From Parafrankia elaeagni (GTDB lineage: Bacteria > Actinomycetota > Actinomycetes > Frankiales > Frankiaceae), in contig NZ_KB893717.1 of assembly GCF_000374165.1 (NCBI RefSeq), positions 186,001 to 250,000 on the forward strand: DNA of 64,000 nucleotides, written 5' to 3'. This document shows positions 24,754 to 42,408 of the stretch, in pieces. A model generated the notes under the pieces. It worked only from the letters and a program-made list of their open reading frames with translations, did not search any database and was not told the origin of the DNA. The stretch's first letter is position 1; each line of letters opens with the position of its first letter. A program made the position numbers and the translations under genes.

Positions 24754-27429
24754 CTACTGGGCGATCGTGGTGATCGTGCCGTCCGGCGCGATGCGCCGGA
24801 TCCGGTCGTTGCCGGCGTCCGCGATGTACAGGGAGCCGGAGCCGTCGATGGCCACCGAGCTGGGCTCGGTGAACTGGGCGGCGCTGGCGGGGCCGTTGTC
24901 GCCCGAGTAGCCCTCGGTGCCCGTCCCGGCGATCGTGGTGATCGTCCCGTTCGGGTCCACCTTGCGGACCCGGTTGTTGCCGTAGTCGGCGATGTAGACC
25001 TCGCCGCCGGGGCCGAGGGTCACGGACGGGACGGACAGCTGCGCCCGGGTGGCGGGGCCGTTGTCGCCCGAGTAGCCCTTCTGGCCGTTGCCCGCGACGG
25101 TGTGGATGATTCCGTCCGTGGTGATCTTCTGGATGGTGTTGCTGCCGAGGTTGGCGATGTAGAGCGTGCCGTCGTCGGCCAGCACGACGTCGTTCGGCCC
25201 GTTCAGGGTGGCGGCGGTGGCGGGGCCACCGGCACCGGTGAAGCCCTCGGTGCCGGTGCCGGCGATGGTGTTGATGATGCCGTCCGGGGTGATCTTCCGG
25301 ATGCGGTTGTTCTCGTAGTCGGCGATGTAGATCGACCCGTCCGGCCCGATCGCGACCTTCTCGGCGCTGTCGAGCTGCGCGGCCGTGGCCGGGCCGCCGT
25401 CACCCGAGAAGCCGCTGGTGCCGGTGCCGGCGATCGTGGTGATCGTCCCGTCCGGGGCGATCTTCCGGATGCGGAAGTTCTGCGCGTCCGAGACGTAGAT
25501 GTTGCCGTTCTTGTCCAGCACCGCCGAGCCGGGGCCGTCGACCTGAGCGGACGCGGCGGGCCCGCCGTCGCCGGCGTAGCCCCCCGAGCCGGTGCCGGCG
25601 AGATCGGAGACCTGACCGGTGCTGGTGATCTTCTGGACGCGGTCCGTGGAGAGGCTGGTGACGAGCAGCGCGCCCTGCGGGTCGATGGTGAGGCTGTAGG
25701 GGCTGAGGCCCTGCACCGTCACCGGCGGCCCGCTGTACGCCGTGCCCGCGCCGGCCGGGGTGTCCCCACCACCACTGCCCGAGCCGCTCGTGGTCGCACG
25801 GTCGTCGTCGCCACCGCCACCGCCGCCGGAGACGGCCGCGACGATGCCGACTGTCAGCGCCACCACGAGGACGAAGACGACCGCCGCGATGATCAGGATG
25901 CGGTTGTTGCGGTTCTGGTCCGCCTGGCCCGGGGCCCGATGCCCCGGCCCGCCCGCGGCCGCGCTGCCGGGCCGCGGCGCCGGCCGCTGACCGGCGCCGC
26001 CCCAGCCCGCGCTGGCGTAGTTCTGCCCGCTGGTCGGCCGCCCGGCGCCCGGGCCCTGCTGGCCGGGAGGCGCGTAGGGCCGGGTGGGCCCGGCGCCCGG
26101 CCCGAGCGGCCGCGGCTGCGGCGTGGAGCCGGGCGGGGGACCCAACGGCCGTGGATGGGGAGTGCCCCCCGCCGCCCCCAGCGGTGCTGACGGAGGTGTC
26201 GCGCCCGCCGGGCCGGTCAACGGCCGCGGGTGGGGTGTGCTGCCGCCGGCTGGCCCGTAGCCGGGCTGGCCGTGGCCGGGCTGGCCGTAGCCAGGCTGGC
26301 CATAGCCGGGCCCGCCGGGAACCTGCCCCGGCTGGGCCGCACCGGGCATCGGCGTGCCCATGCCCGGGTAGCTGGCGCCCGGCCCACCCGGGACCGGCCC
26401 ACCCGGGACCGGCCCGCGGTAGCCGCCGCCAGGCTGCCCCGGCGGATAGCCGGGCCCGCCGGGTGGGTGGCCCCCGCCGGGGCGTGCGGCCGGGAAGCCC
26501 CCGGATCCGCCGCTGTTGTTGCTGCTGCTGCTGGTGGTGCCGCCGATCGCCCCGCGGATCTCGTCGTCCACCCGGAGCTTGACGTCCGAGCGGGAGATCC
26601 AGTTCGGGCCGAACGCCCGGGAGCTCGCGAGAGCCAGCTCCAGGGCGAACTCGGCGGCGTCGGCGAACCTCGCGCCGGGCTCCTTGGCCAGCGTGCGCAT
26701 GATCACCGCGGAGACAGGGGCGGGCACCATCGTGAGCGGCTCGGGCATCACGGTCAGGTGGTGGTGCGTCAGCGGCTGGACCGCCATCTGCCGGCCGAAC
26801 AGCGGCCGCTGGGCGAACATCTCGTACAGGACGCCGGCCAGCGCGTACAGATCCGTGGAGGGGAAGAGCCGCCCACCCATGATCTGTTCGGGGGCCATGT
26901 AGCGGGGCGTGCCGAGGATGGCGCTGGCCGTGGTCTCCGCCCCGTCGAAGATCTTCGCGATGCCGAAGTCGGTGACCTTGAGCAGGCCCGAGCCGTCGAA
27001 CATGATGTTGTCGGGCTTGACATCGCGGTGCAGCACGCCCTGGCTGTGCGCCGTGGCGAGCGCGGCGGCCGCGGCGATGCCGATGGAGCAGATGGTCTCC
27101 GGGGAGAGCTTCTCGGCGGTGATGCGCTGCTTGAGCGTGCCGCCGGAGAGCAGCTCCATCACCAGCAGGCAGGTGCCCTGGTGCTCCACGTAGTCGTGGA
27201 TGCGCACGATGTGCGGATGGTCGAGCTCCGCGAGCACGCGGGCCTCGGAGAGGAAGCGCGCGCGCAGATCCGGGTCGTCGCTGGTGTCAAGGAGGATCTT
27301 GATGGCCACCTTGCGGCCGATGAGCCGGTGCTGGCCGGCGAGCACGAGGCCGTAGCCCCCCTTGCCGAGGTCTCCCTCGACCGCGTAGCCAGGGAGCGCC
27401 GCCTCCACGAGAGATCTGTCGATAAGCAA
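24754..27429 (-). CDS. Transmembrane Ser/Thr protein kinase with extracellular NHL repeats (PknD-like), copy 2
   Basis: It has the same architecture as its downstream neighbour: kinase domain at 14-275 ([53 protein letters not shown]). A long Gly/Pro/Tyr-rich linker includes [16 protein letters not shown]. One helix lies near 507-530 ([23 protein letters not shown]). At least six regular NHL repeats of about 55 residues follow ([54 protein letters not shown]). The repeats here are more alike than in copy 1, suggesting recent internal duplication. The start is taken as TTG 27429; GTG nine codons later is possible. It is the first gene of the kinase operon. Confidence 0.93.
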
Positions 27430-27786: not shown

Positions 27787-29445
27787 ATGGTGAACACCGA
27801 GCCCACTGCCCTCACCGCCGGAGCGGGTGCGCAGCAGACCCCGGAATGGGCCGCGCTGACCGCGCACCACGCGGAGCTCTCCGCGGTGACGCTGCGCCAG
27901 CTCTTTGCCGACGACCAGAACCGCGCCGCGTCATTCAGCGTCGACTCGGACGGACTCCACCTGGACTATTCCAAGAACATCGTCACAGCGCGGACGATCG
28001 AACTGCTGGTGGCCCTGGCCAACCGCGCCGGGCTCGGTGCCCGCATCGAGGCGATGTTCGGCGGCGAGCGGGTCAACGTGACCGAGAACCGACCCGTCCT
28101 GCACGTCGCGCTGCGCGCCCCCGCCGGCGACGTCATCCGGGTGGACGGCGTCGACGTGGTCCCCGAGGTGCACGCGGTGCTCGACCGGATGTCCGCGTTC
28201 GCGGACCGGGTCCGCTCCGGGGTGTGGACGGGCGCGACCGGCGAGCACATCACCACCGTCGTGAACATCGGTATCGGCGGCTCCGATCTCGGGCCGGCCA
28301 TGGCCTGCCAGGCGCTTCGCGACTACTCCGACCGGTCGATCACGGTCCGGTTCGTCTCCAACGTCGACCCGACCGACATCTGGGAGGCGACCCACGACCT
28401 CGACCCGGCCACGACCCTCTTCATCGTCGCGTCGAAGACGTTCACGACGCTGGAGACCCTCGCGAACGCCCGGGCGGCCCGCTCCTGGCTGACGGCGACG
28501 CTCGGCGAGGACGCCGTCTCGTCGCATTTCGTCGCGGTCTCCACGAACGCGGAGAAGGTGGCCGAGTTCGGTATCGACACGGCCAACATGTTCGAGTTCT
28601 GGGACTGGGTGGGCGGCCGGTACTCGATGGACTCCGCCATCGGCCTGTCGCTCATGGTCGCCATCGGTCCCGGGCACTTCCGGGAGATGCTCGCCGGATT
28701 CCACGCGATGGACGTCCACTTCCGGAACGCGCCGTTCGAGCGGAACCTGCCGGTCCTGCTCGGCCTGCTCGGCCTGTGGTACCGGGACTTCTTCGGCTCC
28801 CAGGCGCACGCGGTGCTGCCCTACAGCCAGTACCTGGACCGTTTCGCCGCGTACCTGCAGCAGCTTGACATGGAGAGTAACGGCAAGTCAGTTGATCTCG
28901 AAGGCCGGCCCGTACAGGTGCCGACGGGCCCGGTGGTGTGGGGCACACCGGGGACCAACGGTCAGCACGCCTACTTCCAGCTCCTGCACCAGGGGACGAC
29001 TGTCGTCCCGGCCGACTTCATCGGCTTCGTGCGCCCGAACCATGCGGGCGTCGGCGATGTCGACCAGCACGCCCTGCTGATGGCCAACTTCTTCGCCCAG
29101 ACCGAGGCACTCGCCTTCGGGAAGACCTCCGAGGAGGTGGCGGCCGAGGGAGTGGCCCCTGGGCTGGTCCCGCACCGGACGTTCGCCGGGAACCGGCCGA
29201 CGAACACGCTGCTGGTCTCCGCCCTGACCCCCTTCACCCTCGGCCAGCTGGTGGCACTGTACGAGCACAAGGTCTTCACACAGGGCGTCATCTGGGGCGT
29301 CAACAGCTTCGACCAGTGGGGAGTCGAGCTGGGCAAGGTGCTGGCCGGGCGGATCATCCCCGAGCTGACCGACCCGGCCGCCCCCCTGCGGCACGACAGC
29401 TCCACCAACGCCCTCATCGAGCGGTTCCGTACCGGCACCGTCTGA
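27787..29445 (+). CDS. pgi: Glucose-6-phosphate isomerase
   Basis: It interconverts glucose 6-phosphate and fructose 6-phosphate in glycolysis and gluconeogenesis. Both family signatures are intact: [14 protein letters not shown] and [18 protein letters not shown]. Also present are [11 protein letters not shown], which binds phosphate, SKTFTTLET, and [16 protein letters not shown] with the catalytic His. At 552 residues it is the usual length of the eukaryote-like bacterial form. The open frame extends far upstream, but ATG 27787 is the start: GAGGAAGGG is 10-18 nt before it and homology begins here. It is a single-gene unit. Confidence 0.98.
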
Positions 29446-29610
29446 GCTGGCACCGTCTGAGCTGGCACGGCCCGCGGCTGGCACCGGCCCCCCGACCGGC
29501 AATGAGTAACAGTAGTTCAACGATTAGCTGAGGCTATGTTACTCTCGGTGATCAGTCGACGGGATGGCGCCCGTGCTGTGACGGACGGAGATCTCCGGGG
29601 GGCGACAGGC

Positions 29611-29958
29611 ATGCGGGTCGAGTCGACAGCCACGCGGATGACGGTGCGGCGAACCGGGGACGACGTCGTCATCGAGCTCGGCGGCGAGTTCGACACCGTC
29701 GGCCGGCTGCGGTTCCGCGAGCAGATCGGTGAGCTTCTGGGCCGGGGCGGCGGCCTGGTGACGGTGGACGTCGGCGACCTGGCAGCCGTGGACATCGCGG
29801 GCCTGGCCGCGCTCCTGCGCGCGGAGCTGCTGCTCCGCCGCGTCCACACCGAGCTGCGCATCCGCGCGGCGTCCCCCGCCTTCAGCGAGCTTGTCCGTGA
29901 GACCGGTCTCGCCGGTCGGCTACGGGTCGAGGAGGCCGGCCGCCGCCGCGGCTACTGA
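29611..29958 (+). CDS. STAS-domain protein (anti-anti-sigma-like), lacking the usual phospho-Ser
   Basis: 115 residues forming one STAS domain: DDVVIELGGEFDTVGRLRF, then LVTVDVGDLAAVDIAGLAALLRAELLLRR. In SpoIIAA/RsbV proteins the helix starts D-S-x-G, with the Ser phosphorylated by the anti-sigma kinase; here the motif is D-I-A-G, so control by Ser phosphorylation seems impossible. It may act as a constitutive binder or in a larger complex. ATG 29611 follows GGGGGG at suitable spacing; ATG 29536 is an in-frame alternative adding 25 residues. It converges with, and overlaps by 39 nt, the small membrane gene on the other strand. Confidence 0.8.
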   Translation: MRVESTATRMTVRRTGDDVVIELGGEFDTVGRLRFREQIGELLGRGGGLVTVDVGDLAAVDIAGLAALLRAELLLRRVHTELRIRAASPAFSELVRETGLAGRLRVEEAGRRRGY

Positions 29959-30769: not shown

Positions 30770-31933
30770 TCAGTCGCGGGTGCAGTCGGTGTTGAACGGG
30801 CCGGACTGCGCGCCCTTCACCTCGTTGTCGCAGGTCACGATGTTCTGGGACCGGTCGGGCTGGTGGATGTACACGCCGAAGCCCGTCGCGTTCACGGTGA
30901 GGATGTTGCGGCGGAAGGTGTTCTGCTGGCCCCAGCCCTCGTCGATGACATGGGTCTGGATGCCGTCCTCCAGCGTGCCGCCGCCGACACCGATGTTGTC
31001 CTCGACGAGCCAGCCGTTGCCCTTCACGTCGATCCAGGAGTCGGCCTCGACGAGCGCGTCCGAGGAGAGGGTGTTGCCGCGGACCACCCCGCCGGTCGTC
31101 CCCTCCTTGATGTCGATGTTCTCCGACGTCGTCCCGGCGATGTCGTTGCCGATCACCGCGTTGCGGTCACTGCGGTCCGGCTGGCAGTCGGTGTAGGTGC
31201 ACCAGTTGCTCTCGGCGCTGCCGATGTAGACACCCTCGCCGAACTTCTCCCGGCGGTTGCCGGTGTCCCGGATGACGTTGCCGATGACCGTGTTGTCAGA
31301 ACTCGCGGTGCGCAGGTGAATGGCCTCGTCGCCGATCGTGGTGACGCGGAGCTGGGCGATGGTCGAATGCTGGACGCCGTCCCCGATCACCCCCTTCTGG
31401 CCGTTGCGCACGGAGAAGCCGACCACCCTCACCCAGGACGCCCCTTCCAGGTGCAGCACGTACTTGGCGTCGTCGTCACCGTCGTCGTCCTTGCCGTCGA
31501 GGACGGCGTCCGCCGACCCGCACAGCCAGATCGGCTCGGCTTCGGTGCCCGAGGCGGTGAGCTTGAACGCGCCCCGGTAGACGCCGTCGGCGATCTGGAT
31601 GACGTCGCCCGGCCTCGCTGCGGCGAGAGCGCTGCGCAGGTCACCGGCGTCGGTGACGGTGGTCCCGTCGGACGGGCATTCGACCCGTTCGACCCCGGCG
31701 GTGGCCGCGGCGGCGGTCGGTGCGGCCGTGCTGGCCCGCAGGGACGGAGCGGGCCGGGACGGCGCGACCTCGAGGGGGCTCTCCGTCTCCTCCGGGGCCG
31801 GGGTGCGCGCCGCGCCGGAGTCGGACCCGTCCGAGCCGCAGGAGGTCAGGGCGACCGCCACCGCCGTCAGGACACCGGTCGCGGCCAGCCGCGCGGTCCG
31901 GCGGTGGGGTCGGGCCGGGCGGGCGGTCGTCAT
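30770..31933 (-). CDS. Secreted right-handed beta-helix lipoprotein, second of the exopolysaccharide locus
   Basis: 387 residues. A lipoprotein signal (TARLAATGVLTAVAVALTSC, lipobox LTSC) is followed by a Pro/Ser linker to about residue 95. The rest is a parallel beta-helix of the pectate-lyase/C5-epimerase type: SALAAARPGDVIQIADGVY at the N-cap, then asparagine-ladder coils (VIGNVIRDTG, VIGNDIAGT, VVRGNTLSSD, FRRNILTVNATGFGVYIHQ). Such folds bind and cleave or epimerise acidic polysaccharides; no catalytic residue can be assigned by eye. Its ATG overlaps the stop of the other beta-helix gene by 4 nt, so it is the third gene of the glycosyltransferase operon. Confidence 0.88.
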   Translation of the reverse strand: MTTARPARPHRRTARLAATGVLTAVAVALTSCGSDGSDSGAARTPAPEETESPLEVAPSRPAPSLRASTAAPTAAAATAGVERVECPSDGTTVTDAGDLRSALAAARPGDVIQIADGVYRGAFKLTASGTEAEPIWLCGSADAVLDGKDDDGDDDAKYVLHLEGASWVRVVGFSVRNGQKGVIGDGVQHSTIAQLRVTTIGDEAIHLRTASSDNTVIGNVIRDTGNRREKFGEGVYIGSAESNWCTYTDCQPDRSDRNAVIGNDIAGTTSENIDIKEGTTGGVVRGNTLSSDALVEADSWIDVKGNGWLVEDNIGVGGGTLEDGIQTHVIDEGWGQQNTFRRNILTVNATGFGVYIHQPDRSQNIVTCDNEVKGAQSGPFNTDCTRD

Positions 31934-34287
31934 TTCGTGTGGTCCCCTCTGGAGCGCCGGCGGCGCCGGTGATGTGGGCCGGTGGCCGGTGACGGCGGCT
32001 CGGTGTGCGGGTGCGGGTGCGGTGACAGCGGCTCGGTGTGCGGCTCGGTGTGCGGCTCGGTGTGCGGCTCGGGGGTCGGCCGGGATGGTTCGGGGAGGTG
32101 GCCGTCCGCCCATCGGCTGCCGGGCCCCTGGGCGGCCGGTCCGGGTTCGGGTGCCGCCGGGCCGCCGGGCCAGTCGGTGCGGGGCCACTGGGCTGGTCCG
32201 GCGCTGTGATCGGCGCCGTCGAAGGGCCGGCCCGTCATTCCCGTTCCGTGCGGGCCGGTGTCCGCGGTGTCGATCCGCGGGCGGGTGGAGCGCCGTGGGT
32301 GCCGTGCCTGGGGGACCACAGGGCTGGCGGAGCCCCTGCCAGCCGCACCGGCACCCACCGGCGTGAGCGCGGTGGACGTGGCGACGGCGGCCCCGGCCGG
32401 AGCTGTCCTCGTGCCCCCGGCGGCCGGTACGAGCCCGGCCGGTACGAGCCCGGCCGGTACGAGCCCGGCCGGCACGAGCGCGGCCGGGCCGAACGGAGCT
32501 GGGCCGAAGGCGGCCGGGGCGAGGTCGTCGGCGCCGCGCTGGCCGGGAATGCCGGAGTAGGCGGCATCCGGGCGCATCGTGCCACCGGTGAGCCGCCGGA
32601 CCAGCAGCTCGGACTCGGGGTAGGGATGCCTCGGCGGGCGACGCCGGGCCCGGTGCCGGGTCCAGGCGCCGAGGATGGGGAACAGCGCGACGGCGCCCCA
32701 CACGACCAGCGCCGGATGCCGGCGGATCAGCGTGTACCAGTGCTGCGGCTCGCGTTCCACCCAGCCGTCCGCGTTGTTGTGGTGCACGTCGCCCTCGCGG
32801 ACCCCGAGGGCCTTGCGGATGTCGACGGCACGCCACCCCTCGCCGGCGAGGGTGTTCCACTGGATGGCGGTGCCGTCCGCGGGCCCGCGGACGGTGATCG
32901 CGAACTCGGTGGCATCGCGGATCTTGTTCCGGCTGATGATGTTCGTCGTCGCCTCCTGGGTGATCACCCCCAGGCGACTGTCGGACACCTCGTTCTCGGT
33001 GATCGCGGTGCGGCGGGCGTCCGGCCCGACCTGGATGCCGGCTTCGTCCGGCCCGGTGATGGTGTTACCGGTGACCTGGGTGCCGTTCGCGCCGCTCTTG
33101 ACGATGATGCCGAGCTGCCCGTCACTGATCGTGTTCTTCCGGACGATCGTGTTCTCGCCGCCGACGACCCTGATCCCGTACCGCCCGTTCGCCGAGACGG
33201 TGTTCTCCTCGATCAGTGTGTCCCTGATCTGGTTGATCTGGACGCCGGTCGCGGTGGCGATCACACCGAGGCCACGGCCGTCCAGGGAGATGCCGTCGCC
33301 GCTGTTGTCGGCGACCGTGCTGCGCATCACCCGGGAGCCCGAGGCCCGGTCGATGGTCATGCCGTCACCGTGGTTGCGGGCGGCGGTGACCCCCGAGACG
33401 AGGGTCGTGATCGCGTCCCGGTGCACGGCGAGGCCGGAGCGCTCGTTGTCGATCAGGCGCACCCCGATCATCTGGATGCCCTCGCTGCCCGAGACGTAGG
33501 CGCCGTAGATGTTGTTGCTGAACGTCGAGTTCGCCGCCCCGCCGGTACTCGGCTCGCCCTTGCTTCCCGTCCAGGCGACACCGCCGGTCCGGCCGTTCCA
33601 GAAACCCAGGTGGTTGGCGCTGACGTTGCGCAGGATCAGCTCGCCGCCCATGGTGCGGAGGTAGGAGCGGCCGTCCGCGGTGAGGCTGTCCGGTTCGAGG
33701 TTCTGGACGTCCCAGCCGATGACGGTCAGCGGGTTGTCCGGGGTCGCGCCGGCGAACTCCAGTCCGCCGCGCCAGGTGGCCACCGAGGTGAAGCCGGCCG
33801 CGCCGCTCGCCAGCCGCAGCGTGCCGACGCTGGCGTCGATCACCAGCCGGGCCTGCGGGCCGACCAGGACGTGCGCGGTGAACAGCACGGCCCCGTCCAC
33901 CTCGTGCCGGCCGCCGCCGGCGGCGATGACGTCCTCGGCGCTGTAGGGGGCCTGGCGGGCGGGCAACAGCAGCGTGGGCTGGCTGCCGGCGACCTCGACG
34001 AGGGTCGGCGCGGTCAGCACGCCGAACCGCTCGAACATGGACCGCATCCGGATGTCCTCGGCGTCGACCAGGACGGACTGTTGCTTCGCGTCCCCGGAAC
34101 TGACCGGAGGCAGCGGCGGCACCGGCTCCGCCTGCGCCGGCAGCGCGGTCAGGGTGGTCAGCGCCGTGACCGCCGCCAGCACTGTCAGCGGCGCGAGGGC
34201 GGCCAGGGCGGTGCGGAGCTTCCGCCGAGGGGCCGTCGGGGCCGTCGGGGCCGTCGAGATCGCCGGGGTCGTCGGGGTCGGGGTCAT
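31930..34287 (-). CDS. Exported right-handed beta-helix protein with C-terminal membrane anchor
   Basis: 785 residues. The signal peptide is near residues 20-53 (LTVLAAVTALTTLTALPAQA). A region with a strand-rich lead (SVLVDAEDIRMRSMFERFG) precedes a long beta-helix around 200-510 with regular coils (GDGISLDGRGLGVIA, LIEENTVSANGRYGIRVVGG, IVRKNTISDGQLGIIVKSG, VTGNTITGPDEAGIQV), resembling NosD/AlgG-type C5-epimerases. One helix near 525-545 (ALVVWGAVALFPILGAW) then holds it at the membrane, and the last 240 residues are Pro/Gly/His-rich. ATG 34287 starts within the stop of the glycosyltransferase gene. A role in modifying the nascent polymer is inferred from the operon. Confidence 0.87.
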   Translation of the reverse strand: MTPTPTTPAISTAPTAPTAPRRKLRTALAALAPLTVLAAVTALTTLTALPAQAEPVPPLPPVSSGDAKQQSVLVDAEDIRMRSMFERFGVLTAPTLVEVAGSQPTLLLPARQAPYSAEDVIAAGGGRHEVDGAVLFTAHVLVGPQARLVIDASVGTLRLASGAAGFTSVATWRGGLEFAGATPDNPLTVIGWDVQNLEPDSLTADGRSYLRTMGGELILRNVSANHLGFWNGRTGGVAWTGSKGEPSTGGAANSTFSNNIYGAYVSGSEGIQMIGVRLIDNERSGLAVHRDAITTLVSGVTAARNHGDGMTIDRASGSRVMRSTVADNSGDGISLDGRGLGVIATATGVQINQIRDTLIEENTVSANGRYGIRVVGGENTIVRKNTISDGQLGIIVKSGANGTQVTGNTITGPDEAGIQVGPDARRTAITENEVSDSRLGVITQEATTNIISRNKIRDATEFAITVRGPADGTAIQWNTLAGEGWRAVDIRKALGVREGDVHHNNADGWVEREPQHWYTLIRRHPALVVWGAVALFPILGAWTRHRARRRPPRHPYPESELLVRRLTGGTMRPDAAYSGIPGQRGADDLAPAAFGPAPFGPAALVPAGLVPAGLVPAGLVPAAGGTRTAPAGAAVATSTALTPVGAGAAGRGSASPVVPQARHPRRSTRPRIDTADTGPHGTGMTGRPFDGADHSAGPAQWPRTDWPGGPAAPEPGPAAQGPGSRWADGHLPEPSRPTPEPHTEPHTEPHTEPLSPHPHPHTEPPSPATGPHHRRRRRSRGDHTK
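32030..32065. repeat. 12-bp tandem repeat GGCTCGGTGTGC x3
   Basis: Three perfect in-frame copies near the 3' end of the anchored beta-helix gene; they encode the repeated Glu-Pro-His-Thr of the protein tail (TEPHTEPHTEP). A related partial copy lies at 31997-32008. Confidence 0.88.
32422..32481. repeat. 15-bp tandem repeat GGCCGGTACGAGCCC, 4 copies
   Basis: Three perfect copies and one diverged copy, in frame in the anchored beta-helix gene, encoding LVPAG units (GLVPAGLVPAGLVPA). It extends the disordered C-terminal tail. Confidence 0.88.
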
Positions 34288-35558
34288 CGGGCTCCGCCCG
34301 TCGCTGTGGCGGCCGCCGGGCGGGCTGCCGGGCCGGTTCGGGTCGAGGCGTCGGTCTGTCCCTCGCCGCCGATCAGGTCGGAGCGCCGGGTCAGCCAGCC
34401 CTGCTTGTTCATCGAGACGAGGGCCCAGGCCTTGATCGGCAGCGCGATGACGATGATCATCAGCACGGTGAGGGGGAGGATGAAGATGTCGCGGGGATGC
34501 TCCCGTAGGTGAGAGAGCCCGCGGATGAGCCGTCCGAGCAGCAGCCAGGCGACCGCGATGATCGGGGCGTTCGGCTCCGGCCGGAACATCCACAGGACGA
34601 AGTAGGTCATCGCCACGCCCATCGTCACCGGCGTGAGCACGATCTGCAGCACACTGATCTGCGTGATCAGGGGCTGCCGCCACAGCCAGCCCTTGTAGAT
34701 GGCCGTCAGGTAGGTCCGGTAGGAGTTCCGGCTCCAGCGGACCCGCTGTTTCAGGAAGGCCCGCAGGTTGTCCGGGAACATCGACATGGCACGCGCCGTG
34801 TGCTGGTGCATCGTCCGGTAGCCGGAGGCGAGCACGAGCCAGGTCAGCCGCCCGTCGTCACCGGCGATGCACCGCCGGCCGAGGAAGAACTCGTGCTCCA
34901 GGTTGTGCAGCACGGGCAGGATCGCCGAGCGCCGGTAGGCCGCGGTGCGCCCGGACAGGCAGGCGACGGCGCCGACCCGGCCCTGCGCGGGCACATAGTC
35001 GAGGTAGCGGATGTCGACGAGCCAGTTCGCGACCCGGCGCCACACGCTGCTCCGCGGCTCGTACACGTTCTGGCGGGTTCCGACGCCGCCGACCTGCGGG
35101 TCGATGAACGGCATCTGGACGGCGGCGAGCAGACCCGGCTCCCAGGCGGTGTCGGAGTCGCAGAGCACGACGATCTCCATCGTCGCGGCCGACAGGCCGA
35201 CTCCGAGCGCCGAGCGCTTGCCCTCGTGGACGAAGGGGATCACCCGCACCGTCGGGTCGGCACGCCGGGCGAGGCGGTCGATGAGATCCCGGTCCTCGAC
35301 GTCGGGGATGATGATGATCTCGTCCGGCTCCTGGCCGAGCCAGGTCTCCAGGCAGCGGATCAGGACGTCGGGGTCCTCCCGGAAGGACGGGACGACGACC
35401 GACGTGGTTGTCCGGAAGTTGTTCCGGACGGGCTTGTATCTGGTCGAGAGGAGCCGCCGACTGAGCCACACCACCCAGGACACGGCGCCGGCGATGCCGA
35501 GCGGGATCAGAGATCTGTGATCGCGGACGAACTGCACCGCGTCGCCGAGCCACTCCAT
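34284..35558 (-). CDS. Family 2 membrane glycosyltransferase, hyaluronan/cellulose-synthase-like
   Basis: A processive polysaccharide synthase is likely. Residues 15-37 are a membrane helix (IPLGIAGAVSWVVWLSRRL). The GT2 domain shows VVVPSFREDPDVL, the DxD metal site in VLCDSDTAWEPG near 133, GDD near 234 (AGDDGRLTWLVL) and the acceptor-site KQRVRW near 270, matching the Q/RxxRW signature. About four C-terminal helices follow (VLQIVLTPVTMGVAMTYFVL, ILPLTVLMIIVIALPIKAW). The sequence is closer to hyaluronan/chitin synthases than to BcsA, and no PilZ domain is seen. ATG 35558 was chosen because GT2 homology starts there and GGGGGGAG lies 10-17 nt upstream. First gene of a three-gene operon. Confidence 0.92.
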   Translation of the reverse strand: MEWLGDAVQFVRDHRSLIPLGIAGAVSWVVWLSRRLLSTRYKPVRNNFRTTTSVVVPSFREDPDVLIRCLETWLGQEPDEIIIIPDVEDRDLIDRLARRADPTVRVIPFVHEGKRSALGVGLSAATMEIVVLCDSDTAWEPGLLAAVQMPFIDPQVGGVGTRQNVYEPRSSVWRRVANWLVDIRYLDYVPAQGRVGAVACLSGRTAAYRRSAILPVLHNLEHEFFLGRRCIAGDDGRLTWLVLASGYRTMHQHTARAMSMFPDNLRAFLKQRVRWSRNSYRTYLTAIYKGWLWRQPLITQISVLQIVLTPVTMGVAMTYFVLWMFRPEPNAPIIAVAWLLLGRLIRGLSHLREHPRDIFILPLTVLMIIVIALPIKAWALVSMNKQGWLTRRSDLIGGEGQTDASTRTGPAARPAAATATGGAR

Positions 35559-35916
35559 GCCTGGTTTCGCTCCCCCCGAACGCCGGCTACCGAGAACGCC
35601 GGGGGCACGGGCAGGAACGGGCACGATGCACCGACAGGCACGCCAGCCTGCAGGTTCACGACCCCCACCGCCCCCGTCGGTGGTAGCCCAGACGTGTTGT
35701 TTGCTGAGCCGCCAGAACAGTAGCAGCAGGCTCTGCCCGTTCGTCCCGCCGTCACAACGGCGTAACTCGGGCTGGCAAACTTGTCGCTTGAGGTAGTACC
35801 TCGAACACACGGGGGGATGCATGCTCCGCCGCCGGCCCCCGCTCATCTCGACGAAACCTGGGCGGTCCACAATTCCGTCCGCGGCCCAGCCAGATGCTTG
35901 AGTGGGGGGACACACT
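35559..35916. promoter_or_regulatory. Divergent promoter region of the exopolysaccharide locus
   Basis: 358 nt separating the glycosyltransferase operon from the UDP-glucose dehydrogenase operon, with no supported gene. It holds a perfect palindrome at 35790-35802 and GGGGGGA at 35903-35909, the ribosome-binding site for ATG 35917. A run of G/C-poor sequence near 35755-35785 could hold the promoter. Its position implies joint regulation of both operons. Confidence 0.6.
35790..35802. promoter_or_regulatory. Palindrome GAGGTA-G-TACCTC, candidate operator
   Basis: Perfect 6-bp arms around one central base, with near-symmetry extending a further 1-2 bp. It lies 114 nt before the dehydrogenase start and 231 nt before the glycosyltransferase start. 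The cognate regulator is unknown; none is encoded next to the locus except the cyclase-AAA-TPR protein. Confidence 0.5.
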
Positions 35917-37329
35917 ATGAGCGCCGAGTCAGTGAGTACCGAGACGGTTACGGCACCACTGCGGATCAGTGTGATTGGCACCGGCTATCTGGGGGCCACG
36001 CACGCGATCTGCATGAGCGAGCTCGGTTTCGACGTCGTCGGTATCGACGTCGACCCGGACAAGGTGCGGCGGCTGGCCGACGGCGAGGTGCCCTTCTTCG
36101 AGCCCGGTCTGGAAGAGCTCCTGCGCAAGAACCTGGCGACCGGCCGGCTGGCCTTCACCACCTCCTTCGCGGAGGCGGCCGACGCCGACGTGCACTTCCT
36201 CTGCGTGGGCACCCCGCAGCGCGCCGACTCCGGCGCCGCTGACATGACCTTCGTGGACGGCGCCGTGGAGCGCCTGCTCGCCGTCGGGCCGAAGTCCGGG
36301 TCGCTGCTGGTGGGCAAGTCGACGGTCCCGGCCGGTACCGCGGTACGCCTCGCCGGCTGGCTCGCGCGGGAGGCCCCCGACGTCGACCTCGCCTGGAACC
36401 CGGAGTTCCTGCGCGAGGGCTTCGCCGTCGAGGACACCCTGCGCCCGGACCGGCTGGTCTTCGGGCTGCCCGCCGACGACGAGTGGTACGGCGTCGCCGA
36501 CCGCTACGACCACGGTGACCACACCGGGCGGCGGGACCGGGTGGAGGCCAGGCTGCGGGCGGTCTACGCGGTCGCGCTGGCCGCGGGCACACCCGCCGTC
36601 GTCTCCGACTTCGCCACCGCCGAGCTGGTGAAGGTCGCGGCGAACGCCTTCCTGGCCACGAAGATCTCCTTCATCAACGCGATGTCCGAGGTCTGCGAGG
36701 TCGCCGGCGCCGACGTGAAGACCCTGGCCTCGGCGCTGTCGTACGACACCCGCATCGGCGGCCGGTTCCTCGGCGCCGGCCTCGGGTTCGGCGGCGGCTG
36801 CCTGCCCAAGGACATCCGCGCCTTCCAGGCCCGCGCCGAGGAGATCGGCGCCGGCCCGGCCCTGCGCTTCCTCGACGAGGTCGACACCGTCAACCTGCGC
36901 CGCCGGACCCGGACGGTGGAGCTGGCGATCCACCTCCTCGGCGGCGTCGCCGCCGGGCGGCGGGTGGCCGTGCTCGGCGCGGCCTTCAAGCCGAACAGCG
37001 ACGACATCCGCGACTCGCCGGCCCTCGACGTCGCCGACACCCTGCGCCGAGCCGGCGCCCGGGTGACGGTCTACGACCCGGCCGCGATGGAGAACGCCGC
37101 CCGCAAGTTCCCCGACCTGCGCTACGCGACCGGGGTCGCCGCGGCGGTCGCCGACGCCGATGTCGTGCTGCACCTCACCGAGTGGGCCGACTTCCGGGAG
37201 ATCGAGCCGTCGCTGCTGACCCCCCTGGTCCGCCGCCCGGTCATCGTCGACGGGCGCAACACCCTCGACCCGCAGCTGTGGCGCGGCGCGGGCTGGATCT
37301 ACCACGCCCTCGGCCGACCGAACGTATGA
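35917..37329 (+). CDS. ugd: UDP-glucose 6-dehydrogenase (nucleotide-sugar dehydrogenase)
   Basis: It oxidises UDP-glucose to UDP-glucuronate with two NAD+. VIGTGYLGATHAICMSELGF is the NAD-binding Rossmann start and strongly resembles mycobacterial UdgA. Also present are FLCVGTPQ, GKSTVPAGT and NPEFLREGFAVEDTLRPDR. GFGGGCLPKDI contains the catalytic Cys295, and AFKPNSDDIRDSPALDV lies in the C-terminal domain. The spacing and motifs favour UDP-glucose over GDP-mannose, but the family boundary is not absolute. ATG 35917 has GGGGGGA 7 nt upstream and is preferred to GTG 35902. Its stop overlaps the next start (ATGA). 470 residues. It supplies the precursor for the divergent synthase. Confidence 0.94.
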   Translation: MSAESVSTETVTAPLRISVIGTGYLGATHAICMSELGFDVVGIDVDPDKVRRLADGEVPFFEPGLEELLRKNLATGRLAFTTSFAEAADADVHFLCVGTPQRADSGAADMTFVDGAVERLLAVGPKSGSLLVGKSTVPAGTAVRLAGWLAREAPDVDLAWNPEFLREGFAVEDTLRPDRLVFGLPADDEWYGVADRYDHGDHTGRRDRVEARLRAVYAVALAAGTPAVVSDFATAELVKVAANAFLATKISFINAMSEVCEVAGADVKTLASALSYDTRIGGRFLGAGLGFGGGCLPKDIRAFQARAEEIGAGPALRFLDEVDTVNLRRRTRTVELAIHLLGGVAAGRRVAVLGAAFKPNSDDIRDSPALDVADTLRRAGARVTVYDPAAMENAARKFPDLRYATGVAAAVADADVVLHLTEWADFREIEPSLLTPLVRRPVIVDGRNTLDPQLWRGAGWIYHALGRPNV

Positions 37330-38318
37330 GCCGGTCGGGGCAGCCGGGAGCGACACCTCCGGGGCCCCGCGGCCGGACGAGGCGGGCGATGCTCGCCTCG
37401 TCCCTCGGCGTGCTCGGCCTCGCTGCCGGCGCCGGGTGCGGAGCGCTCACCGACGACCAGGTCTTCGACCCGGCCAGTGAGATCCTCCCGCCCGACACGG
37501 CGGCGCCGGCCGCGGGTCCCGCCACCACGGCGCCCGCGGCCGGTGTGGCGACGGGCCGCACGCTGGCGGACCCGGCCGCGGCGCGGGAGTTCTTCGGCAG
37601 GGAGCTGGTTCCGCAGACCCGGTCGTCCTTCGGGCTCGACCGGGCCGCGATCATGGTGTCGGACGACCCGCGTTTCCCGCAGTTCCTGCGGGTGGCGATC
37701 CCGGTCGACGCGATGAACCCGTCCGACGCGAGAATCTACGGTGACGGGCCGACCTACGGTGGCACGCAGCTTTTCGTCGATCACACACTGCGCTCGCCCT
37801 ACGAGCTGTACCTGCGTTACTACCTGCGGTTTCCGGAGACGTTCGACTTCGGCAACGGCGGACGCCTGCCCGGATTCTTCGGAACCATCGTGAAGGACCG
37901 CCGGCGCACCGAGACGATGCGCAGCGGACTGGCGACGCGTTTCGCCTGGCGCGAGGGCGGCAAGGGCATCGTGTACGCGAACACCGCCCGCGAGGACCAT
38001 CCGGTGAATGTGATCGGGAAAGGCTCGTGGTACTGGCCGAGGGGCCGCTGGGCCTGCGTCGAACAGGGCGTCAAACTCAACTTCGAGGGTTTCGCCGACG
38101 GGGTGATCCTCATGTGGCTGGACGGCCAGCTGGTGCACAAGGAGAGTTTCAACCCGCGGATCTCGAGCGATCTGCGGATCGGCGGCATTCTCGCCACCGC
38201 CACGTTCGGTGACGGTGGGGCGTCGTTCGCGCCGACCACGACGCAGGCGATCGACCTGGCCGGCTTCGCCTACGGCATCGCGCGCCTCAACCCGCTGCCG
38301 AGGCCGGAGGAGACCTGA
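37326..38318 (+). CDS. Exported polysaccharide lyase-like protein (PL14-type)
   Basis: 330 residues. A twin-Arg signal with lipobox is visible (RTRRAMLASSLGVLGLAAGAGC). After a Pro/Ala linker the domain of about 230 residues includes YELYLRYYLRFPETFDFGNGG, LPGFFGTIVKD, RWACVEQGVKLNFEG and DGVILMWLDGQLVHKE, a beta-jelly-roll pattern resembling PL14 alginate/glucuronan lyases. Identification is by recall of the family pattern, not by search. PL14 enzymes cleave uronic-acid polymers by beta-elimination. Coupling to ugd (4-nt overlap) fits a role in trimming or releasing the polymer. Its last 49 nt overlap the opposing cyclase gene. Confidence 0.78.
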   Translation: MSRSGQPGATPPGPRGRTRRAMLASSLGVLGLAAGAGCGALTDDQVFDPASEILPPDTAAPAAGPATTAPAAGVATGRTLADPAAAREFFGRELVPQTRSSFGLDRAAIMVSDDPRFPQFLRVAIPVDAMNPSDARIYGDGPTYGGTQLFVDHTLRSPYELYLRYYLRFPETFDFGNGGRLPGFFGTIVKDRRRTETMRSGLATRFAWREGGKGIVYANTAREDHPVNVIGKGSWYWPRGRWACVEQGVKLNFEGFADGVILMWLDGQLVHKESFNPRISSDLRIGGILATATFGDGGASFAPTTTQAIDLAGFAYGIARLNPLPRPEET

Positions 38319-41300
38319 TCGAGGCTTTCGAAGTGCCGCCGGGCCATCGCCGCCGCGGCCCGGTTTCCCTTGTGCAGGAAGCGCGCGGCGGCGGCCTCGA
38401 GGCTCTCGGCCGCGTCGTCCTTGCGCCCCGCCCGGTACAGCACCTCGGCCCGGGCGAGCAGGGCGTTGCCCTGCCCGTCGATGTCATCGGTGCGGCTGGC
38501 GAGATCGCAGGCGGTGTCGGCGAACCGTAGTGCCTCGGCGTCGCGCCCGGAGATCGCCAGCAGCCGGGCGTGCACCGAACACCAGCCGGCCTGGGCGGGC
38601 AGCTGGTCGCCCGCGGCGGCGTCCCGGCACCGGTTCACGTACTTCGTCGCCTCCTCCAGCTTGCCGAGGCGGACGAGCACGTCGGCGAGCAGCGCGGCGC
38701 GGGTGGCCAGGTGCGCCCGTTCGCCCATCCGGGACAGCTGCCGGCAGCTGCGCCGCAGCTCGCGCTCGGCGACCTCCGGCTCACCGGCGAGCAGCGCGAC
38801 CCGGGCGACGACGAAGCCGCTGTGGAACGGGTCGGCGCGGGCGCCGCGGATGTCACCGACGATCTCCTCGGCGTCCTTGAGGTGGGCCCGCGCGGCTTCC
38901 ATGTCGTCGGACATCGCGGTGAGCAGCGCGAGCTGGGCGAGGACAGCCCGGCGCAGGCCGCGGTCGTCGCCGGCGCCGTCCAGCGCCGCGGCCGCCTTCG
39001 CGATCGAGTAGGGCACCGGCCCCGGAACCAGGCTCAGCAGCAGGACGAGCTCGCGCCGCAGCGAGTGCGCCGCCCGTGGCACCCCCGACTCCTCGGCGTG
39101 CCGTACCGCGTTCTCCATCGCCTTCTCCGCCGCCGCGAACTGGCCGGCGGCGCCGTAGGCGGCACTCTGGCTGCGGCAGGCCAGCGCGGCCCCGACGTCG
39201 TCGCCGTCGCGGACGAAGGACGCCAGCGCCGCGGTCGCCTCGGTGAGGGTGCTGGCGACCAGGCCCTCCGGGTCGGTGGCGAACAGGACGCGCAGGTGCG
39301 CGAGGCGGGCGTGGGCGCGCAGCCCGTCCTCACCGGCGCGGCGTGCCCGGTCGCTGACCTGCCGCAGGATCCGTTCGGCGTCCGAGAGCCGGCCGAAGGA
39401 GTACAGCGCCCAGCCGAGGTCGATCTCCGCGCGCAGCCGCAGCGGGTCGGTCTCCGGCAGCAGGGTGATCGCCCGCTTCAGCAGTTGCGCGGCGCCGGTC
39501 TCGTCACCCTGGCGAACCCGGTCGGCCGCCTCGATCAGGCAGGTCGCCGCGGACCGGCCGAGCTCGACCATCTCGTTGTCGCGCTGGCCGAGCTCCACCC
39601 GGTAGCGGTAGGCCTGCTCCAGGTGGTACCCGACCAGCTCGTCGTGCTCGCCGGGACCGCCGACCATCCGGGCCTGCAGCCAGCCGGCGAACCGCTCGTG
39701 CAGGTCGGCGCGCTGGCGCTTGGACGTCGTCTGGTACGCGCAGTCCCGCAGCAGGACGTGCAGGAACCGGTACGCCTCCACCCCGGGCAGGTCGGAGCGG
39801 TCGGGGTGGACCAGCTCCTTGCGGACGAGCGACAGGCAGTGCTCGTAGACGTAGGGGCGTTCCACCGGGTCGGACAGATCGATGACGGCATCGAGGTAGA
39901 AGCGTTCGCCGACGACCGCGGCGCGCTCCAGCACCTGGCGCTCCGGCGGGTCCAGCCGGTCGAGCCTGGCGGCGAGCAGCGCGGAGATCGTCGGTGGCAC
40001 GGTGACGCCGCGCAGGCTGCCGGTGGCGATCCACCGGCTGCCCTCCCGGCGGAGCAGGCCGTCGTCGACGAGCGCGGCGACCATCTGCTCGACGAACAGC
40101 GGGTTGCCCGCGGCGGAGGTGGTGATCCGGGAGACCAGCGCGGGGTCGAGGTCGTCCGACCCCATCAGGGTGCGGATCAGCCGCTGGCAGCGTGCCTCGG
40201 TGAGCGGCGCCAGCAGCAGCGAGGTGGCGTTCAGCTTGCCGCCGCCCCACATCCGGCGCTCCTCGAGCAACTCGGGGCGGGACAGGCACAGCAGCAGGAT
40301 CGGCGCGTCGCGGGACCAGTCCGCCACGTGCTCGATGAGGTCGAGCAGGGTCGGCTCGGCCCAGTGCACGTCGTCGAACCAGAGCACCAGCGGGCGCTGC
40401 TCGGCCAGTGCCTGGAAGAACGTGCGGACGGCCCAGAAGCTCTCCTGGGTGCCCAGCTCCGCACCGCCGAGGCCGACGAGGGGGGCGAGGGCGTCCACCA
40501 CCTCGGCGGCCTGTGGGACACCGGCGAGCAGGTTCTTCAGCCGCAGCCGGCCGTCGGGCGCGCTCTCGTCGGCGGACATGCCGGTGGCCTGGCGCACCAT
40601 CTCCATCAGCGGCCAGTAGGCGATGCCCTCGCCGTAGGACAGGCAGCGGCCGGTGAGCACCGTCGCCCGGCTGGAGATGCCCTCGCAGAACTCGCCGACC
40701 ATGCGGGACTTGCCGATGCCGGCGGGCCCCAGAACGGTGAACAGGTGACAGGTCCGCTCCTCCACGACTGCCTCGAAGGCGTCCTGGAGGCGGCGGCGCT
40801 CGCGGTTGCGGCCGATCACCGGCGCGGCGAACCCCTGGGACGGCTCCCGCAGGCCGGGCCCGACGCCCGGGTTGCGCAGGCCGAGCAGCCGGTGCGCCCG
40901 CACCGGCTCCCGCTTGCCCTGGACGACCAGCGGCCCGACCGAGCTCGTGGTGATGCTGTGCCGGACGAACCGGTAGGTGCTCTCGCCGATGAGGATCTCG
41001 TCGGGCGGGGCCGCCTCCTCCAGCCGGGAGGCCACGTTCACCGGGTCACCGGTGGCGCCGCCGCCGGCGACGGTCACCTCGCCGGTGTTGATACCGATCC
41101 GCACCCGCAGCCGCAGGTTCAGGTCGCGGTGGAACTCGGTGTTCAGTTCCTCCATGGCGGCGCGGATGTCCAGGCTCGCCCGGACGGCGCGCAGCGCGTC
41201 GTCCTCATGCAGCACCGGGATGCCGAACACGGCGAACACCGCGTCACCGATGAACTTCTCGACCGTGCCGCCATGCGCGTAGATGACCTCGCGGACGGTC

Positions 41301-41503
41301 GTGAAGAACCGCCACATGACCTGTTGCAGCTGCTCGGAGTCGATCTTCTCGCCAATGTCGGTCGACCCGGTGATGTCGACGAACATGATGGTCACGATCT
41401 TGCGGGCTCCGGTGCCTGCGACGGGCAGGGGATTCCCGCAGGCGGAGCAGAAGCGCGCGCGCTCGGGGTTCCCCTCCTCCCCGCATGTCGGGCACAACGC
41501 CAT
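38270..41503 (-). CDS. Class III nucleotide cyclase - AAA ATPase - TPR regulator with zinc ribbon
   Basis: 1077 residues. Domains: zinc ribbon CPTCGEEGNPERARFCSACG (residues 4-23); cyclase homology domain (about 35-210) with metal Asp in FVDITGST and FIGDAVFAVFG, Lys in EKFIGD, and Asn/Arg in DPVNVASRLEEA, so it appears catalytically intact; AAA/STAND ATPase with GPAGIGKSRMVGEF near 256 and LVLWFDDVHWAEP; and a long TPR-like helical C-terminus. Such proteins sense ligands and may make cAMP. ATG 41503 puts the zinc ribbon at the N-terminus; longer frames lack support. It converges on the exopolysaccharide locus (49-nt overlap), so could be functionally linked, but this is not shown. Confidence 0.93.
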   Translation of the reverse strand: MALCPTCGEEGNPERARFCSACGNPLPVAGTGARKIVTIMFVDITGSTDIGEKIDSEQLQQVMWRFFTTVREVIYAHGGTVEKFIGDAVFAVFGIPVLHEDDALRAVRASLDIRAAMEELNTEFHRDLNLRLRVRIGINTGEVTVAGGGATGDPVNVASRLEEAAPPDEILIGESTYRFVRHSITTSSVGPLVVQGKREPVRAHRLLGLRNPGVGPGLREPSQGFAAPVIGRNRERRRLQDAFEAVVEERTCHLFTVLGPAGIGKSRMVGEFCEGISSRATVLTGRCLSYGEGIAYWPLMEMVRQATGMSADESAPDGRLRLKNLLAGVPQAAEVVDALAPLVGLGGAELGTQESFWAVRTFFQALAEQRPLVLWFDDVHWAEPTLLDLIEHVADWSRDAPILLLCLSRPELLEERRMWGGGKLNATSLLLAPLTEARCQRLIRTLMGSDDLDPALVSRITTSAAGNPLFVEQMVAALVDDGLLRREGSRWIATGSLRGVTVPPTISALLAARLDRLDPPERQVLERAAVVGERFYLDAVIDLSDPVERPYVYEHCLSLVRKELVHPDRSDLPGVEAYRFLHVLLRDCAYQTTSKRQRADLHERFAGWLQARMVGGPGEHDELVGYHLEQAYRYRVELGQRDNEMVELGRSAATCLIEAADRVRQGDETGAAQLLKRAITLLPETDPLRLRAEIDLGWALYSFGRLSDAERILRQVSDRARRAGEDGLRAHARLAHLRVLFATDPEGLVASTLTEATAALASFVRDGDDVGAALACRSQSAAYGAAGQFAAAEKAMENAVRHAEESGVPRAAHSLRRELVLLLSLVPGPVPYSIAKAAAALDGAGDDRGLRRAVLAQLALLTAMSDDMEAARAHLKDAEEIVGDIRGARADPFHSGFVVARVALLAGEPEVAERELRRSCRQLSRMGERAHLATRAALLADVLVRLGKLEEATKYVNRCRDAAAGDQLPAQAGWCSVHARLLAISGRDAEALRFADTACDLASRTDDIDGQGNALLARAEVLYRAGRKDDAAESLEAAAARFLHKGNRAAAAMARRHFESLDQVSSGLGSGLRRAMP

Positions 41504-41607
41504 GTGCGGGATCGTAGGCCGATCGCGGTGGCGAGAGGTGGGGGATGAGGGGACGCGCCGTGCGGGCAGTGACCTATGCCACATCACGGATTCGGTCCGT
41601 TCCTGGT

Positions 41608-42408
41608 TCAGGATGGCAGGTCCCGGCGCAGTGAGGCGCTCGCGGCGGCGATGAGGACCACCGCCCACGAGATCGCGGCGGACAGTGACGAGACCGGGGT
41701 CTCGGTGGTGGGCCACAGGAGCACGCCCGAAGGGGCGGTCACCGGGCCGTGGAAGCGCGCTCCGTCGAGCACGGCCTCGACCAGGCCGCTCAGCGCGACG
41801 GTGCCGGCGCCCAGGCCGAGGCCGCGGGTGAGCTCACCCAGCGCCACGCCGGTCAGGCCGGCCGCGCACACCACGGCGACCACGATCAGGTAGGCGGACA
41901 GCAGCTGGGCGGGCCGGTCCGACCGCATGGCCGCGCCCCCGTGCCGGCCGGCGCCGCGCAGCCACCAGGCCGCGAACACGAGGCTGGACAGGACCATGCC
42001 GGTGAGCACCACCGTCGTGGCCTGGGCGGCGAGGACCCGCACCCGGCCCGGGCTGACCAGCCAGGCGTGGGTGACTGTGCGATACCGGTATTCGCTGGTG
42101 ACGAGAACCAGGCCGAAGAACATCATCGCGTAGGCGAGGAGGAAGCCGGAGCGGGCGCGCAGACTGATCCAGGCGCGGGCCGGATCGGCCTGGGCGCCCC
42201 ACAGCAGCAGGGGCAGCGCGTGCACGGCCAGGACGACACACAGCCCGGCGAGCTGCCACCGCCCGGTGGCCAGCTTCATGAGCTCGGCACCGACGAGGCG
42301 CGGTGCGCGCGGCCCACGGCCCCGCCCCGTACCCCCCGTACCCCCCGCGCGCGACCGGCGGACGGCGGCCCGGCCGCCGTGGGCGGCGAGCGTGTGCGGG
42401 CCGGTCAT
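41608..42408 (-). CDS. ABC transporter permease (ABC-2 type)
   Basis: 266 residues with about six membrane helices after a basic N-terminus (for example LAGLCVVLAVHALPLLLWG, FLLAYAMMFFGLVLVTSEY, QATTVVLTGMVLSSLVFAAWW, LSAYLIVVAVVCAAGLTGVAL, SLSAAISWAVVLIAAASA). The SEYRYRTVTHAWLVSPGR loop is characteristic of ABC-2 permeases that pair with drug/peptide-type ATPases. Its start overlaps the ATPase stop by 4 nt, forming a two-component exporter. The substrate is unknown. Confidence 0.87.
   Translation of the reverse strand: MTGPHTLAAHGGRAAVRRSRAGGTGGTGRGRGPRAPRLVGAELMKLATGRWQLAGLCVVLAVHALPLLLWGAQADPARAWISLRARSGFLLAYAMMFFGLVLVTSEYRYRTVTHAWLVSPGRVRVLAAQATTVVLTGMVLSSLVFAAWWLRGAGRHGGAAMRSDRPAQLLSAYLIVVAVVCAAGLTGVALGELTRGLGLGAGTVALSGLVEAVLDGARFHGPVTAPSGVLLWPTTETPVSSLSAAISWAVVLIAAASASLRRDLPS

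Follow-up and report, generated by a model that had tools for sequence, protein, structure and literature searches.

The 64,000-nucleotide stretch of Parafrankia elaeagni analyzed here (henceforth the window, i.e., positions 186,001 to 250,000 of contig NZ_KB893717.1, assembly GCF_000374165.1) harbors at positions 30,770 to 38,318 five genes in two divergent operons that probably form a synthase-dependent exopolysaccharide locus, with a backbone that is most likely beta-1,4-linked, rich in glucuronic acid (GlcA) and glucuronan-like. The system belongs to the already known synthase-dependent uronan production, as a variant form of it. One operon encodes a family 2 glycosyltransferase (GT2) and two beta-helix proteins (BH1 and BH2), the other a UDP-glucose 6-dehydrogenase-type protein (UGD) and a protein of the polysaccharide lyase family 14 (PL14) type. 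An earlier note on this DNA had read the genes as a make-modify-trim pathway for a GlcA polymer; the synthase, the dehydrogenase and the conserved gene set agree with this, whereas BH2 had to be reassigned and the active site of the PL14-type protein is altered. The layout it described was recovered in full, i.e., the re-derived coordinates give the same five reading frames and strands, all three junctions inside the operons are 4-nt ATGA overlaps, and the intergenic region common to both operons (35,559..35,916) has a computed length of 358 nt, as claimed.

Synthase and dehydrogenase

The GT2 synthase (34,284..35,558, minus strand, 424 amino acids) matches PF13641 (6.9e-29), and its best match in the PDB is a hyaluronan synthase (HAS), 8smm (phmmer 3.3e-23, profile 3.1e-28). 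Hyaluronan synthases being closest by both methods, and not a non-processive enzyme, the view of GT2 as a HAS-like enzyme of the processive type is upheld as far as similarity goes. The NodC (135 bits, cut-off 550) and PgaC (55.5 bits, cut-off 422) models of NCBIfam both score below cut-off. The expected DxD, GDD and QxxRW motifs are present as DSDT, GDDGRLT and QRVRW, and HxGKR, DxDT, CxSG, GDDGR, QRxRW and a gating-loop-like NxQGWLTR are invariant in 18 aligned GT2 sequences (56-92% identity to the window copy). About five helices, as proposed, are plausible: three Kyte-Doolittle 19-residue windows pass (two of them overlapping) and two more stretches look hydrophobic by eye. Judging by motifs and alignment, we consider GT2 a putatively processive enzyme of the HAS/NodC type. 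The available parts of the HAS structure papers describe K177 and R341 of CvHAS as contacting UDP-GlcA (PMC11750622, PMC12987647) and C307 of XlHAS1 as belonging to the N-acetylglucosamine (GlcNAc) collar (PMC11750622). Going by these descriptions, K114 and R274 of GT2 are the counterparts of K177 and R341, and of the XlHAS1 residues of channel and acceptor site (R287, R296, C307 and R343), C307 is kept as C200; R287 is matched by profile alignment only, an outcome that depends on the alignment. Processive GT2 enzymes probably share such lysine and arginine residues in general, thus K114 and R274 do not fix the substrate.

UGD (35,917..37,329, plus strand, 470 amino acids) carries the Pfam domains PF03721, PF00984 and PF03720 and matches TIGR03026 at 8e-115. 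Against the PDB it scores 309 bits with the UDP-glucose dehydrogenase 4a7p and 161 bits with the GDP-mannose dehydrogenase 1mfz, in line with the type assigned before, and Cys295 in GGGCLPKD was named correctly, as judged by alignment. UGD stays below the equivalog cut-offs of UDP-glucose dehydrogenase models (e.g., TuaD, 355.8 of 700); from its similarities, it appears to suit UDP-glucose better than GDP-mannose.

Beta-helix proteins and the PL14-type protein

BH1 (31,930..34,287, minus strand, 785 amino acids, with a C-terminal hydrophobic segment) matches Pfam Beta_helix (6.8e-24), has the AlgG fold and keeps a histidine and an arginine aligned with AlgG; with NCBIfam NF038177 it reaches 18.5 bits, short of the cut-off of 700. 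We consider it a putative exported C5-epimerase that may epimerize the polymer. Of the two NosD/AlgG-like beta-helix proteins proposed earlier, BH1 thus stands and BH2 does not, the latter being of the PL31 lyase type; because BH1 is related to AlgG, the claim that the locus is built from families different from those of alginate is only partly true. BH1 is duplicated in tandem within the operon in three loci (L069:10548-14635, L074:5033-9327 and L075:5360-10353).

BH2 (30,770..31,933, minus strand, 387 amino acids, probably a lipoprotein) scores 9.2e-6 against Beta_helix (25.8 bits, just below the cut-off of 25.9) and, by phmmer, 3.7e-41 against 6kfn, the PL31 alginate lyase PsAly. In the available parts of the PsAly study, the Y184F and K221A mutants have no detectable activity, mutants of D188 and K191 also lose activity, and conserved cleft and cation residues are listed (PMC6796002). 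All twelve PsAly residues that were checked (K128, H154, R156, E181, Y184, E216, D219, K221, D250, K252, Q276 and H278) are present in the window BH2, and nine of these positions are invariant in 28/28 BH2 sequences (27 distinct, i.e., every BH2 locus of our tblastn table plus the window), whereas the other three, D250, Q276 and H278, vary in two, three and one of the sequences, respectively; D188 and K191 are not kept. By homology, BH2 is predicted to be a uronan lyase of the PL31 type whose active site is intact, and with BH2 of this type the locus therefore has a single epimerase candidate beside two proteins of lyase type. In a class sample of 296 genomes, GT2 was found at E <= 1e-100 in 22, and with 161 residues of BH2 as the query (E <= 1e-10) a PL31-like gene was found in 27, including all 22; the Fisher tests on this co-occurrence ignore relatedness. 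Several genomes have three to six PL31-like genes each (G026, G028, G030, G031, G079, G096, G110 and G123), mostly away from the GT2 locus.

The PL14-type protein (37,326..38,318, plus strand, 330 amino acids, probably a lipoprotein) matches PF21294 above cut-off (9.1e-26) and has a jelly-roll lyase fold, i.e., by structure it is a lyase. Its active-site region has R180, A203, R205, Y217 and N219. At the positions of Lys99, Tyr140 and Tyr142 of AkAly30 (Aplysia), which we take to be catalytic, the window copy has R, Y and N, and the counterpart of Ser126 is Ala. The earlier call of a PL14-like lyase thus holds for fold and family, whereas two of the three presumed catalytic residues are replaced; because Arg and Asn stand for Lys99 and Tyr142, the trimming role leans more on the PL31-type protein. 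In the class sample, 19/23 PL14 genes adjoin synthesis-type genes, which are of the window type in 10 cases and of the second type described below in 9 (in one of these, where the contig begins, only the acyltransferase is present), and 4 do not. More distant PL14 genes in L116, L117, L118 and L119 have none of the searched synthesis genes nearby.

Conservation of the gene set

GT2 is present at >= 75% identity in 15/36 genomes of the Frankiaceae sample, i.e., in 6/7 of the window's genus and in 4/5, 4/8 and 1/1 of three others, one further genus (0/13) and two single-genome genera (0/1 each) being without it. All five genes occur in 14 of these 15 genomes (the window and 13 others; the contig of L060 stops after GT2), and UGD adjoins GT2 in 15/15 loci, so that the five genes proved to be conserved together in relatives, as the reading of the note required. 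Because all five genes come back together in 13 further Frankiaceae genomes, we regard the set as more than a chance grouping, and because the PL14 gene of L009 (a locus of which L061 is a duplicate) follows BH2 within the synthase operon, PL14 belongs to the set. Outside Frankiaceae, 15 loci with a GT2 of about 56-68% identity all carry BH1 (two at 27%), and 13 carry BH2, one contig ending early and one locus being without it. The five-gene set is thus complete in Frankiaceae, whereas PL14 is found in 0/15 of the outside loci; among the loci examined, PL14 is part of the set only in Frankiaceae, and GT2 with BH1, mostly with BH2 and often with UGD, recurs in other families. Some fetched regions outside Frankiaceae are cut by contig ends.

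As a control, six loci with a GT2 of 29-34% identity carry none of BH1, BH2 and PL14. At 40-48%, UGD or PL14 is present and the full core is missing: L127 (41%) has BH1, PL14 and UGD, L079/L110 (about 40%) have PL14 and UGD, and L080 and L081 (about 40%) have UGD and second-type genes. The count of 15 outside loci leaves out these, L126 and the controls. Neighborhood counts come from the tblastn table, in which each identity refers to whichever of several queries matched best and thus not in every case to the window, and genes outside the window were called by a simple GC-frame script that may miss or extend genes. The tblastn queries reported no beta-helix gene in L080, L081, L086, L108, L109 and L111-L115; gene calling with blastp recovered one in L080, L081, L086, L109, L111, L114 and L115, and found none in L108, L110, L112 and L113.

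A second locus and the genomic setting

The same genome holds a second locus on contig 57 (L086:3107-10347), which encodes a dehydrogenase, a different GT2 (its ortholog falls in PF13632), an acyltransferase of the AT3/SGNH type, a beta-helix protein and a PL14 (L086:9445-10347) whose canonical active site is complete (K, Y and Y at the three AkAly30 positions). The beta-helix protein is AlgG-like with the motif DPHS, and its ortholog in L111 scores 108 bits against the AlgG model (E 3.5e-31; the cut-off of 700 is not reached). An ortholog of the dehydrogenase scores 137 and 133 bits, leaving UDP-glucose and GDP-mannose types unseparated. The same five genes are found in L111, L114 and L115, and L113 is without a called beta-helix gene. 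This second locus is more alginate-like than that of the window. In L083:7503-12806, a distant HAS-like GT2 is flanked by a GH26-type protein on one side and an acyltransferase of the AT3 type on the other, and a similar set occurs in L084.

The source genome is a 7.6-Mb draft (135 contigs, 98% complete), and the nearest named GT2 match is that of Parafrankia colletiae (98%). Near the locus are a phosphoglucose isomerase (window 28000-29445, plus strand) and a small frame with a STAS-type look by eye (29536-29958, plus strand). A protein with a nucleotide cyclase domain, an AAA ATPase and TPR (38270-41716, minus strand) converges on the PL14 gene, and its gene still adjoins the locus in related genomes. 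ARAGORN reports a tRNA-Ala at 26252-26340 (plus strand), of an unusual 89 nt in a GC-rich stretch, that may be false; at gathering threshold, no Rfam family matched in the window.

Proposed pathway and alternatives

With the families, folds, active-site residues, gene order and conservation as observed, we infer the activities, the polymer, the membrane anchoring and the order of steps as follows. UGD would provide UDP-glucuronate, which GT2 would polymerize alone or with a second UDP-sugar, also moving the chain across the single membrane. BH1, held outside by its C-terminal helix, may epimerize some of the polymer's uronates, and BH2 would cut the chain by beta-elimination, either setting its length or removing polymer that is stuck, in the manner of AlgL in alginate synthesis. 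The lipoprotein of the PL14 type, added in Frankiaceae, may cut a particular pattern or bind the chain.

Several observations weigh against this pathway. UGD lies within the fetched region in 8/15 of the GT2 loci outside Frankiaceae (one at 29% identity), and L126 (GT2 48%) has UGD with neither BH1 nor BH2 nearby. BH1 is without DPHD, the motif typical of the C5-epimerase catalytic site according to the available parts of PMC11468063, and has AVHR at that place; its histidine is missing in 2/20 and its arginine in 1/20 aligned orthologs. The window PL14 is without equivalents of Lys99 and Tyr142, and in the class sample 20/58 PL31-like matches lie within 10 kb of GT2 and 38/58 do not, therefore PL31 is not confined to the locus. 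Going by the parts of the HAS papers at hand, R296 of XlHAS1 is not kept in GT2 and R343 of GDDR is replaced by Gly; the NodC model gives only 135 of 550 bits, yet an amino-sugar product is possible. No polymer of these strains was described in the accessible parts of the literature searched.

An alternating heteropolymer, hyaluronan-like (GlcA/GlcNAc) or cellobiuronan-like (GlcA/glucose), made by an otherwise identical mechanism, strikes us as somewhat unlikely. The best matches of GT2 are two-substrate hyaluronan synthases, its C200 matches the collar cysteine of XlHAS1 as described in the source parts available, and it resembles NodC; however, the five genes include no GlcNAc-supply gene, the two arginine changes just mentioned speak against it as well, and the enzymes of PL31 and PL14 described in the literature, as far as the sources were accessible, act on alginate or glucuronan, with none found on hyaluronan. 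It is quite improbable that the product of GT2 is a neutral or amino-sugar chain, with UGD serving another pathway and the beta-helix proteins acting by other chemistry, as the NodC/PgaC-type similarity of GT2 and the UGD outside the fetched region in 7/15 non-Frankiaceae loci (some cut by contig ends) might suggest, given the intact PL31 uronan-lyase site, the PL31-like gene in 22/22 GT2 genomes and the invariable neighborhood of UGD and GT2 in Frankiaceae.

The hosts are plant-associated, and the accessible literature treats PL31 and PL14 enzymes as degradative, so that the locus might be thought to degrade plant or algal uronans with GT2 as a chance neighbor. This is hardly credible: the window GT2, BH1 and BH2 genes overlap and stay together across families, and the six control loci are devoid of BH1, BH2 and PL14. 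No GH88 gene was found in the draft genome (98% complete), which is a mild argument against a nutritional use, and no uronate-uptake or catabolic gene was noticed among the neighbors, only some of which are annotated.

Relation to known systems and implications

The alginate operon of Pseudomonas and Azotobacter includes AlgD, Alg8/Alg44, AlgG and AlgL, and it shares with the glucuronan-like pathway proposed here the grouping of a dehydrogenase, a GT2, a lyase and a protein with the AlgG fold at a single locus. The window locus differs in that its dehydrogenase scores as UGD and not as GDP-mannose dehydrogenase, its GT2 is HAS/NodC-like, its lyases are PL31 and PL14 instead of PL5, BH1 is without DPHD, an acetylase is absent and the host has a single membrane. 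In Pseudomonas, AlgL clears polymer during synthesis, according to the parts of PMC8829089 available, and by analogy it would be the most suitable model of a lyase encoded among synthesis genes. Hyaluronan synthase systems share the GT2 family, the motifs and the UDP-GlcA supply, whereas the window locus has, in addition, a candidate epimerase and two proteins of lyase type, and some hyaluronan-contacting residues are not kept. PsAly is an alginate lyase of Paenibacillus sp. FPU-7 to which BH2 is clearly homologous, keeping all twelve active-site residues that were checked; BH2 is instead encoded within a synthesis operon and is without D188 and K191. Related sequences in Streptomyces are noted in the accessible part of that study (PMC6796002). 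AkAly30 and vAL-1 (PL14) and Aly36B (PL36) share fold and family with the window PL14-type protein, which differs at the counterparts of Lys99, Ser126 and Tyr142 (Arg, Ala and Asn). The brown-algal alginate machinery (GT2, ManC5-E, PL41) comprises the same kinds of protein; its epimerases keep DPHD, however, its precursor is GDP-mannuronate, and algal sequences lay outside this comparison. The available parts of the algal studies place the closest bacterial relatives of ManC5-E in Actinobacteria (about 30% identity) and propose an actinobacterial origin (PMC11468063, PMC8307928), which one of them doubts for the dehydrogenase, inferring distinct donors for ManC5-E and PL41 (PMC11468063). In the literature searched, to the extent that it was accessible, no description of the window locus was found.

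A wider reading, which we regard as doubtful, is that actinomycetes hold widespread uronan synthesis operons, i.e., present-day kin of the alginate machinery acquired by brown algae, in two types (a core of GT2, AlgG-fold protein and PL31, often with UGD; or GT2, AlgG-like epimerase, O-acyltransferase and PL14) with glucuronan/iduronan or alginate-like products, and that a good part of PL31 and most PL14 genes serve synthesis and not degradation. If the pathway proposed for the window locus is right, the annotation of some actinomycete PL31 and PL14 genes would change (20/58 PL31-like and 19/23 PL14 genes adjoin synthesis genes), and enzymes for the production of glucuronan-type polymers would be at hand. 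Single-membrane bacteria would then make, modify and trim a polymer by a pathway that resembles that of alginate and uses another precursor and another synthase, served by lyase types that the literature, in the parts accessible, treats as degraders.
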